NCBI GenBank assembly: GCA_024642215.1
Contig: JAHEBO010000016.1
Span: 39,783-103,782, forward strand
Length of the DNA stretch: 64,000 bases
Direction: 5' to 3'
Origin: Limnohabitans sp.
GTDB taxonomy: Bacteria; Pseudomonadota; Gammaproteobacteria; Burkholderiales; Burkholderiaceae_C
Positions 44,305 through 47,800 of the stretch are shown here, one piece after another. A program made the translations under genes and the position numbers. Numbering within the stretch: position 1 is the first letter of the stretch; every line of letters begins with the position of its first letter. Under the pieces are notes generated by a model that was given only the letters and a program-made list of their open reading frames with translations, was not told the origin of the DNA and ran no database searches.

Positions 44305-44937
44305 TTATTCCAAACGCCATGTGTATTTCATGCTCGCCCAGCTTTGCTGAGGTTTGCCATCCACCGTGCCAGGCCTGAATTGACACTTGGACAAGCCCGC
44401 ACGCGCAGCTTCGTCCAGGCGCCTAAAGCCCGAGGACTTTTCGACGGCAGATTCAAGCACCTTGCCGTCTGCGCCGACCAAGAACTTCAGCGTCACGGTG
44501 CCTTCTTCTTCCAAGCGCTTGGAGGCGCTGGGGTACTCAGGCTTCTCGCAACTTGATGCACTGATCACAGCAGCCGTCGAAACGGGGCCAGAAGCCACTG
44601 GCAACGGCGAAGGCGGGGCAACAGGTTGCGGCGTGTTGGACACGGCAGCAATGGCATTCACGGGTGTGGGGGCGGCCACAGCAATTTCCACAGGCGGCAC
44701 ATAAGCCGGCGGTGGGGGCGGCAAATTCTTCGGCGGTGGAGGTGGCGGGGGCGGCGGAATGTCCGGTTTGGTCTCTTCCAAAAGAACGGCCTCAACCGGT
44801 CCTTTGATCACTTTCACAAACTTGCGCGCAAGTCCGGAGTTGATGGCCCAAAACAGCAGCCCGTGTAACACCACCACTACCGTCAAACCCACGACATGTT
44901 TGCGGGGTGTTCTCTGCCGGCTGGCGTAATCGATCAT
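44305..44937 (-). CDS. tonB: TonB family energy transducer
   Basis: N-terminal TM, proline run PPPPPPPPPKNLPPPPPAYVPP, C-terminal KPEYPSASKRLEEEGTVTLKFLVGADGKV. Confidence 0.92.
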   Translation of the reverse strand: MIDYASRQRTPRKHVVGLTVVVVLHGLLFWAINSGLARKFVKVIKGPVEAVLLEETKPDIPPPPPPPPPKNLPPPPPAYVPPVEIAVAAPTPVNAIAAVSNTPQPVAPPSPLPVASGPVSTAAVISASSCEKPEYPSASKRLEEEGTVTLKFLVGADGKVLESAVEKSSGFRRLDEAARAGLSKCQFRPGTVDGKPQQSWASMKYTWRLE

Positions 44938-45041: not shown

Positions 45042-45242
45042 CTCTGCGCATGTTCGCAAAAAATGCACCTGGCATATTCTGTAAGGCGTAGATCTTACCC
45101 GCTGATTGATTGAACGGGACGGGTGATCCGCGAGGTGTTGGGAGGTCCCATCCCGCCTCTTGCACACATAATGACAAAGCAGAGGACAATACCGGCACAA
45201 TCCGCGAAAATTTTTTCCTTGAGTTTTGAGTATTTTTGATTC

Positions 45243-46463
45243 ATGCAACACGTTTCCTGGTCACGCAGCGCCAACATTTACCAAGTCAATGTCCGCCAAT
45301 ACACACCCGAGGGCACGTTGAATGCATTCGCAGTCCATTTGCCACGCCTGCATCAAATGGGTGTGGACATTTTGTGGCTGATGCCCATTCAGCCCATTGG
45401 CAAATCAAAGCGCAAAGACAGTTTGGGCGCCTATGACGAGGTCACCGATCACGTCGCAGTCAACCCAGCATTTGGTTCGCTCAAAGACTTCAAGGCACTG
45501 GTTCAGCAAGCACATTCACTGGGCATGAAGGTCATCATCGAATGGGTGGCCCAGACCACCTCACGTGAGCATGTGTGGGTCAAGCAACATCCTGAGTGGT
45601 ATCTCAAACTCGAGACAGTCGAAACCCAAAGTACTCAGCATGAGAAGGGCGTCAGGGCCGCAGAAGGGTCTGAGCGCTTGAGCCTAGACTTCGGCAGCAA
45701 GCCTGTCTGGGCAGCCATGACACAGGCCATGCTCTTTTGGCTCAAAGAAGCCGACGTGGATGGGTTTAGCTGTCCATCGGCCAGCGAATTGCCGCTCAAG
45801 TTTTGGCAACAAGCACGCGCCAAGCTAGAGGCTCAAAAGCCTGTGTTCATGTTGGCCGGTTCTGCAGATGCGCAAGTTGAAGAATCCGCTTTTGACATGG
45901 TGTACGACTGGGCGCTGTACGATATTTTGAAAAAGATCGCCAAGGGCCATGCCGATGTGCGAGATCTCAAAGCTTATCTGGCAACGACGGCGGCCAATCT
46001 TCAAGCGGACACGTTCCGCATGACCTTTACAGCCAATCACGACACCAACGCATTGCAAAACCATGATGCGGCTCATTTTGGTGACGCTTTTTCGGCCATG
46101 GCGGTAATTGCAGCCACCTTTCCTGGTATGCCATTGGTCTACAGTGGTCAAGAATCGGGGCTTCACAAAATGCTCCCCATTTTTGAAAAGGATGCCATTG
46201 ACTGGCAAAACTTGAAGTACGAAAAACTCTATGCCAATTTGCTGGCCATGAAGAAAAAGCACCCAGCTTTGCACAACGGTGCAACTGGCGCATCCGTTGA
46301 AGTATTTGAGGTAGACAACCAGCACATCTTGGCCTTCCGTCGCCAAAAAGGCATCAATGTGGTGTCAGTACAAGTCAACTTGAGTGGGCAAAACCAAGCC
46401 TTCAACTTACACGGCAAGCCACGCAAACTTGGCGCTTGGGAACACCAAATCCAAACCAGTTGA
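45243..46463 (+). CDS. Alpha-amylase (GH13)-family protein, predicted catalytically inactive
   Basis: GH13 fold motifs throughout (GVDILWLMPIQPIG, GAYDEVTDHVAVNPAFGSLKDFKALVQQAH, FTANHD, FPGMPLVYSGQESGL), but catalytic Asp and Glu positions are Pro and Gly. Confidence 0.88.
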   Translation: MQHVSWSRSANIYQVNVRQYTPEGTLNAFAVHLPRLHQMGVDILWLMPIQPIGKSKRKDSLGAYDEVTDHVAVNPAFGSLKDFKALVQQAHSLGMKVIIEWVAQTTSREHVWVKQHPEWYLKLETVETQSTQHEKGVRAAEGSERLSLDFGSKPVWAAMTQAMLFWLKEADVDGFSCPSASELPLKFWQQARAKLEAQKPVFMLAGSADAQVEESAFDMVYDWALYDILKKIAKGHADVRDLKAYLATTAANLQADTFRMTFTANHDTNALQNHDAAHFGDAFSAMAVIAATFPGMPLVYSGQESGLHKMLPIFEKDAIDWQNLKYEKLYANLLAMKKKHPALHNGATGASVEVFEVDNQHILAFRRQKGINVVSVQVNLSGQNQAFNLHGKPRKLGAWEHQIQTS

Positions 46464-46537
46464 TGGGCCTTGCTCTCGTGTGGCGGCGCTTCAGGCCCTA
46501 CGCGACCATTGCGTTGCAATTTTTTCTAAAGTTCATT

Positions 46538-47800
46538 ATGAAAATTTCACCGACACATTCTTGGATGTCTACCGTTTCATCAAGGCTTCAAGGCGTTTTC
46601 TCCCAAACTTTGGCTGTCGTGTTGTGGGGCTTTGCCTTCAGCTTGAGCGTCCAAGCCCAACTGGCTGTGAGGCCGGAGGTTGCCAAATCCCTGCAAGCTG
46701 CCCAAGATGCTTTGAAAGCGGGGCAAGTTGAAAATGCACTGACTTTGTCACAGCAAACGCTCGCCATGCCAGGCATCACGGCCATTGAGAAACCCATCAT
46801 CCAACGCACCTTGGCGGTGGCCGCCCTCCAAGCCAAGAACCTGCCCTTGGCGATCAGTACGCTTGAAAATTTGATTCAAGAAATGCCAGCCGACACACCT
46901 GCCGCTCAAAAACGTCCCTTGATCGAGTCCTTGCTCAATGCCAGTCAGCAGGCGCAAGACTTGCCGCGTGTTGTTGATTGGGCGCGTACCTATTTAAAAC
47001 TAGAAGGCAGCAACGCATCGGTCCGCCCTGTCCTCATTCAAACCTTGTCCGTCTTAAAGCGCCACGATGAGGTGATTCACGAAGTCAAAGAAAAAATGCG
47101 CTTGGATGAAGCTGCCAAACTCAAAACTGCCGAAAGCGAATTGCGCATGATGGCCGTTAGCCAACGTCAGCTCAAAGACGATGCGGGCTACAACGCAAGC
47201 TTAAAACTGCTGCTGCAAAACTACCCCTCCAAAGCGTATTGGGGCGAGATGATCCCGCGCTTGGCCCGGCAAGCCAACTTCAATGCCCGCTATGACCTGG
47301 ACCTCTATCGCTTGCTCGAACTGACGGGCAACTTAGAAGACGCCATCGAGTACGTTGACATGGCCAACTTGGCACTCAAGGCGGGCTTGCCCGCAGAAGC
47401 TTCGCGCATGGTCGAGCAGGCATACAGGTCAGGACTTTTGGGCAAAGGCAGTGATGCGGCCAGTCACCAAAAACTTCGGCAACAAATTCAGCAACGCTTG
47501 AGCGAAGACGAAAAGGCCTTGCCTGCCTTGGAAAAATCAGCCAAAGATGCCAATGCGTTGGCCAGCTTGGCGGATGTGTATGCCGCCAAACAAAAATGGG
47601 AACAAGCGCAAGCCTATTACAGCAAGGCCTTGGCCCTGGGTGGCCTGCGGCGTGAACCTGAAACACGTTTACACGCTGGCATGGTGCTTTACAAGTTAGG
47701 CCAAAAAGCAGAGGCACTTCAAATGTTAGGCAGCGTTCAGGGCGATGTCACCGCTGTTGACATTGCCCAGTTGTGGACCTTGTGGCTGGTCAATCACTGA
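46538..47800 (+). CDS. Secreted/periplasmic tetratricopeptide-repeat-like protein
   Basis: Signal peptide MKISPTHSWMSTVSSRLQGVFSQTLAVVLWGFAFSLSVQAQ; helical repeats such as SLQAAQDALKAGQVENALTLSQQTLA and WEQAQAYYSKALALGGLRREPETRLHAGMVLYKLGQKAEAL. Confidence 0.75.
   Translation: MKISPTHSWMSTVSSRLQGVFSQTLAVVLWGFAFSLSVQAQLAVRPEVAKSLQAAQDALKAGQVENALTLSQQTLAMPGITAIEKPIIQRTLAVAALQAKNLPLAISTLENLIQEMPADTPAAQKRPLIESLLNASQQAQDLPRVVDWARTYLKLEGSNASVRPVLIQTLSVLKRHDEVIHEVKEKMRLDEAAKLKTAESELRMMAVSQRQLKDDAGYNASLKLLLQNYPSKAYWGEMIPRLARQANFNARYDLDLYRLLELTGNLEDAIEYVDMANLALKAGLPAEASRMVEQAYRSGLLGKGSDAASHQKLRQQIQQRLSEDEKALPALEKSAKDANALASLADVYAAKQKWEQAQAYYSKALALGGLRREPETRLHAGMVLYKLGQKAEALQMLGSVQGDVTAVDIAQLWTLWLVNH

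Follow-up and report, generated by a model that had tools for sequence, protein, structure and literature searches.

A GH13_48-type amylase of Limnohabitans that has lost its catalytic residues: a probable maintained pseudoenzyme with parallels in Duganella lactea and Bacteroidia

The window, a stretch of 64,000 nucleotides of DNA from the freshwater bacterium Limnohabitans sp., encodes a protein of the GH13 alpha-amylase family whose nucleophile and acid/base are replaced. The protein is probably a maintained pseudoenzyme, which would have arisen from an active GH13_48-type maltogenic amylase after loss of the surrounding pathway. The best-known GH13 pseudoenzymes with a role are those of animals. 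Apparently new here are the evidence that selection has been maintained, the recurrence of such proteins in bacteria and the association with loss of the companion pathway.

Protein and family placement

The reading frame (Table 1) contained no internal stop codon and matched the Pfam Alpha-amylase family (PF00128) at 2.8e-26, above the cut-off. No signal peptide was seen in the 406-residue protein, and a simple scan of the + strand detected no promoter-like site upstream of the ORF. The AlphaFold2 model (mean pLDDT 91.4, pTM 0.91) and the Pfam match revealed the (beta/alpha)8 barrel with domains B and C that is expected of GH13. The best PDB folds found by Foldseek were 3dhu (Lactobacillus plantarum; TM 0.83) and 4gkl (Thermotoga neapolitana AmyB; TM 0.82), which are the closest solved relatives by sequence together with predicted fold, and both are members of GH13 subfamily 48 (PMC11239784). 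The window protein is closest to the maltogenic-amylase group, the GH13_48 of the literature. It keeps the cysteine that directly precedes the nucleophile in CSR-II (C177), as well as the L-[DN] ending of CSR-V (L148-D149) and the GQ ending of CSR-VII (G302-Q303), both of which are features of GH13_48 (PMC11239784). It differs from the two solved enzymes in that the nucleophile and the acid/base are absent and the aspartate D144, aligned with the substrate-recognition residue Asp135 in T. neapolitana numbering, is glutamate, so that inactivity is expected.

Table 1. Positions of the features in the window, and of the two parallel genes elsewhere
Feature	Position	Strand	Basis or remark
tonB, conserved left flank (then exbB, two exbD, glucokinase)	44305..44937	-	synteny
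3'-end remnant of deleted upstream amylase gene (525-aa AmyA of relatives)	45177..45229	+	about 88% identity (L116, L121, L118)
GH13_48-like pseudoenzyme ORF (probable)	45243..46463	+	406 aa; AlphaFold2 pLDDT/pTM; PDB folds 3dhu, 4gkl
Y65D, subsite -1 tyrosine lost	45435..45437	+	Y in 256/258 homologues
Region I, N104Q and H105T	45552..45557	+	N in 255/258, H in 256/258 homologues
Domain B loop, residues 124-142, ending with W142G	45612..45668	+	pLDDT < 50 for 124-142
Region II, R176S, C177 kept, D178P (nucleophile lost)	45768..45776	+	R and D each in 256/258 homologues
Region III, E206G (acid/base lost)	45858..45860	+	E in 255/258 homologues
Region IV, N265-H266-D267, kept	46035..46043	+	homologue alignment
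Interval with second deletion junction	46464..46537	+	synteny with L116, L118, L120
TPR-repeat protein, signal-peptide-like start, conserved locus flank	46538..47800	+	synteny
Dead GH13_48, Duganella lactea FT50W (G114)	L012:4935-6185		signal-peptide-like start
Dead GH13_48, Bacteroidia G1056 (protein L315)	L353:7689-9080		signal-peptide-like start; D178N, E206Q, D267E

Loss of the active site

The protein was compared with 258 distinct homologous proteins from Limnohabitans, other Burkholderiales, Sphingomonadales and Bacteroidia. The GH13 triad, consisting of Asp on beta4, Glu on beta5 and Asp on beta7, reads P178, G206 and D267 in the window protein. The preliminary description had reported altered regions I to III and a kept FTANHD in region IV, and the motifs read as it stated, first against more than 60 homologues and later against all 258: IIEWVAQTTS versus IIDWVANHTA in region I (which includes D100E), DGFSCP versus DGFRCD in region II and MLAGS versus MLAES in region III. 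Its claim of an intact GH13-fold ORF without catalytic residues was likewise borne out by the open frame, the Pfam match and the alignment, in which D178, E206 and R176 of active relatives lie opposite the lost positions with no gaps. The extent of the damage, however, had been understated, since ten more positions of the catalytic face are replaced (G59, S63, Y65, Y70, D109, G126, W142, D144, W271 and F313). Most subsite -1 residues are gone (Y65D, H105T, R176S), and 20 of the 29 residues of the domain B loop region 117-145 differ from homologue L110. Among the columns conserved in at least 95% of sequences, 14/58 are altered in the window protein versus 0/58 in each of seven Limnohabitans orthologues, a difference beyond what chance would give.

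The locus comes from a single draft genome, which is the one point in favor of a sequencing, assembly or alignment artefact. A sequencing error is not plausible because several replacements need two or three nucleotide changes (three for D178P; two each for E206G, H105T and R176S), and the many multi-nucleotide replacements are all in frame in an ungapped alignment. In addition, the locus is contiguous on a 104-kb contig and GC and GC3 are normal, making an artefact improbable to the point of being negligible.

Loss of activity is strongly predicted for the window protein; it is a prediction and not a demonstration because BmaN1, a GH13 enzyme with an aberrant triad, is still active (PMC5347038). 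This precedent, together with the kept H266-D267 and the acidic residues gained by the window protein, would speak for an enzyme of altered chemistry, in which new cleft residues (e.g., D59, D65, E100 and E109 with H266-D267) would support another reaction. BmaN1-type GH13_45 proteins resemble the window protein in their non-canonical catalytic residues, but BmaN1 keeps its glutamate acid/base, whereas the window protein has lost the nucleophile, the acid/base and the substrate-binding residues R176 and H105. Altered chemistry is highly unlikely in view of this difference and of the selection and parallel data given below. An alpha-amylase annotation by an automatic pipeline would wrongly credit the bacterium with that activity.

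Deletion of the maltodextrin locus

In five Limnohabitans relatives the GH13 orthologue sits inside a maltodextrin locus that is at least about 20 kb long. A pullulanase and further GH13 enzymes (610, 545 and 525 aa) are annotated there, as are a sugar-binding protein and two probable permease genes, a TonB receptor, a Trp-halogenase-like gene, a TPR gene and a LacI regulator. A rep-like helicase bounds the locus on one side and tonB-exbB-exbD-glk on the other, the latter flank having been read in the relative G006. In the window, tonB-exbB-exbD-glk is followed by the GH13 and TPR genes alone, and these by the helicase. The PF00128 search of the window assembly (2.5 Mb, 92.8% complete) returned this ORF as the only GH13.

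One deletion ended just upstream of the GH13 start: the short segment found there derives from the 3' end of the missing gene for the 525-aa amylase, and the left edge of this remnant marks the approximate junction. A second deletion, which removed the Trp-halogenase-like gene and the TonB receptor, ended in the 74-nt interval that separates the GH13 stop codon from the TPR start codon. An 18-nt match that would have set the 3' deletion edge about 15 nt past the stop was rejected, as it falls inside the G006 TPR coding sequence and is probably due to chance.

In eight other Limnohabitans relatives (L131-L137 and L142), tonB, the TPR gene and the rep-like helicase are directly adjacent and the GH13 gene is absent; the whole maltodextrin locus has been lost there, by repeated or shared loss. 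A functional link of the GH13 protein with TonB/ExbBD, whose nearness, like that of the TPR gene, the preliminary description had cited, was therefore dropped, since these genes merely flank the deleted locus and persist where GH13 is absent. Strong purifying selection acts on the TPR protein, which persists even in relatives without the sugar locus, and for these reasons its role is probably independent of maltodextrin use. Near the locus of relatives, L119:7020-8819 and L122:119-1981 carry a glucokinase fused to an RpiR-type regulator domain with a SIS domain, the fusion being shown for L119. The glucokinase-RpiR/SIS gene is absent from the corresponding part of the window.

Selection on the window gene

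The amino-acid branch leading to the window gene was 0.27 long, versus about 0.03 in the closest orthologues, and the TPR neighbor was not accelerated. In a branch codon model (our own implementation, window branch versus elsewhere), omega was 0.197 on the window branch and 0.0755 elsewhere (2dlnL 24.5), and omega = 1 was rejected on the window branch (2dlnL 68.6). The TPR control gave 0.042 on the same branch.

Next, the codons were partitioned by the barrel geometry of the model into a catalytic face of beta-to-alpha loops (167 codons) and the rest (216 codons). With this partition, which was drawn by an analyst who had already seen the changes, omega of the face rose from 0.050 to 0.366 on the window branch (2dlnL 79), an about sevenfold relaxation, and that of the scaffold went from 0.098 to 0.080 (2dlnL 0.56, not significant). 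The result held without domain B (2dlnL 33.2 for the face and 0.41 for the rest). The face carried 50 of the 65 lineage-specific replacements, which was as extreme in 3/383 circular shifts. Fisher tests of conserved columns on face versus rest gave p values of 0.004 and 0.001 for the window protein, 0.17 and 0.08 for the D. lactea protein and 0.13 and 0.03 for the Bacteroidia protein described below; they are weak for the latter two because conserved columns lie mostly on the face anyway. Uniform pseudogene decay was ruled out by the partitioned codon model. The face omega of 0.366 is below 1, with no excess over neutrality, which speaks against altered chemistry.

These data bear on whether the gene is a relic on its way out, useless since the loss of the locus and not yet hit by a stop or frameshift. 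Its faster evolution than that of active orthologues and the disappearance of the whole locus, GH13 gene included, from eight relatives are as a relic would predict, and a published survey deemed such sequences errors or ongoing pseudogenization (PMC11239784). However, the relaxation is limited to the catalytic face, and the scaffold omega is unchanged. The frame is open, with no stop or frameshift and no indel relative to the closest orthologues. The face implies a neutral divergence of at least about 0.23 substitutions per site since the loss, if it is neutral; simulated neutral genes retained an open frame in 0/3000 cases at 0.23 per site and in 1.7% at 0.10, so that zero stops would be very improbable at the required divergence. 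A relic is accordingly unlikely. At least equally unlikely is a protein with no role that is still expressed, in which selection acts only against misfolding and the cleft residues, not being needed for the fold, drift. Folding constraint of this kind would explain both the restriction of changes to functional-site residues and the absence of a new conserved motif, but stops, frameshifts or deletion would remove such a protein free of cost, and deletion did happen in relatives; open frames in three lineages would be left without explanation. These two are the main rivals of a maintained pseudoenzyme, and both struggle with the absent stops and the full deletion in relatives.

The window protein thus combines missing catalytic residues in an intact frame with purifying selection after catalytic loss, the latter indirectly, as the window branch includes time before the loss. 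The selection statistics favor the earlier inference that the gene is maintained rather than decaying. The preliminary description had also held that close relatives with an intact triad could mark this copy as a decaying allele; such relatives do exist, but the codon analysis and the two parallel cases argue against decay.

Parallel losses in Duganella lactea and Bacteroidia

A triad member was missing in 3/258 homologues, namely the window protein, a protein of Duganella lactea FT50W (L012/L156) and a Bacteroidia protein (L315 of genome G1056); all remaining tallied homologues retain Asp-Glu-Asp, and the triad was intact in 11/11 Limnohabitans orthologues examined. The exact window variant was found in one genome only, and a class-wide scan around the window genome added a single further homologue. 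Judged from their sequences, the three dead copies are independent, because each has close relatives with an intact site (identity 77% for the window protein, 88% for D. lactea and 77% for L315). All three lack W142, E206, W271 and F313. D. lactea and L315 differ in which triad members they have lost, a further point against altered chemistry.

In the D. lactea protein, 12 of 190 Duganella-invariant sites are changed, essentially all of them cleft sites (V102A, H105Q, W108S, E140A, W142S, E206A, Y221E, W223L, D267A, S270A, W271S and F313L), and most of the domain B loop, which has low confidence in the window model, has been deleted. An intact fold is predicted (pLDDT 93.7). Overall omega was 0.107 versus 0.090 in the background, with no difference between them, and omega = 1 was rejected (2dlnL 59.6); after partition, omega was raised to 0.236 on the face and lowered to 0.034 in the rest. 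This confined pattern without a raised overall omega also argues against a relic. For L315, dS was saturated in the codon model.

Both genomes appear poor in companion enzymes. Besides the dead protein, the D. lactea genome has only a GlgB-like GH13, and six relatives have 4-10 family matches; G1056 has a single first-look GH13 candidate, versus 5-47 in 90 other matching Bacteroidia genomes. The gene neighbors differ among the three dead proteins. Those of the D. lactea gene are S9-type and M20-type peptidase genes, which the intact relative L020 shares, and those of L315 are a large TamB-like ORF and a TsaD-like gene. The signal-peptide-like starts of the D. lactea and L315 proteins are lacking in the window protein, and because predicted locations thus differ, one simple partner is disfavored. 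A second role shared by the three is not obvious.

Proposed course of events and known systems

According to the comparisons above, the ancestral gene belonged to a maltodextrin locus that also encoded other amylases and a pullulanase, as well as a sugar-binding protein with probable permeases, a TonB receptor and a LacI regulator. That locus was deleted around it, leaving no other GH13 in the assembly, and in the same lineage the catalytic face was dismantled while the rest stayed under normal purifying selection with an open frame; the two steps could have occurred either way round. D. lactea and one Bacteroidia genome arrived independently at the same outcome, a dead cleft in a genome depleted of other amylases. 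We infer that GH13_48 has a second function that needs the folded scaffold and not the sugar cleft, most likely a protein-protein contact or a structural role. Once alpha-glucan metabolism was lost, the enzymatic half may have become dispensable or unwanted and the scaffold half kept.

The cleft appears abandoned because sugar-contacting and catalytic residues are both lost. The carbohydrate-binding and sensor roles suggested in the preliminary description are disfavored, as the sugar-contacting Y65, H105, R176, W142 and W271 are gone too, and a glycan sensor or lectin was dropped as first choice given the loss of sugar-contact residues in three cases.

As a tentative generalization that we rate below the reading of the window protein itself, GH13_48 maltogenic amylases may be bifunctional across several phyla, with a conserved non-catalytic job. 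Lineages that drop alpha-glucan metabolism might then either delete the amylase or repeatedly convert it to a dead scaffold through loss of W142, E206, W271 and F313. The three independent bacterial conversions, each in a genome without companion amylases, amount to a natural replicated experiment in which the scaffold is demonstrably selected in two. A family annotated purely as starch enzymes may hide a second function.

The ectodomains of rBAT/SLC3A1 and 4F2hc/SLC3A2 are GH13 pseudoenzymes with a role in animals (PMC8537225, PMC11239784). They keep the GH13 fold for a non-enzymatic, partner-binding role, as is proposed for the window protein, but are membrane glycoproteins from another GH13 branch, whereas the window protein is a soluble bacterial protein with a recent loss. 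It has been remarked that some bacterial GH13_48 members lack catalytic residues, and the 2024 study defining the subfamily removed 17/364 sequences whose catalytic machinery was incomplete, which it took for likely errors or for ongoing pseudogenization (PMC11239784). These discarded GH13_48/49 sequences are probably of the same kind as the window protein. In surveys of CAZymes, the absence of catalytic residues is by itself no reason to set a sequence aside as an error.

Among the homologues, three Saprospiraceae proteins (L039, L040 and L042) were about 1215 aa long. The L039 protein joins its GH13_48 domain to a GH31 domain, which may hint at a functional partner.
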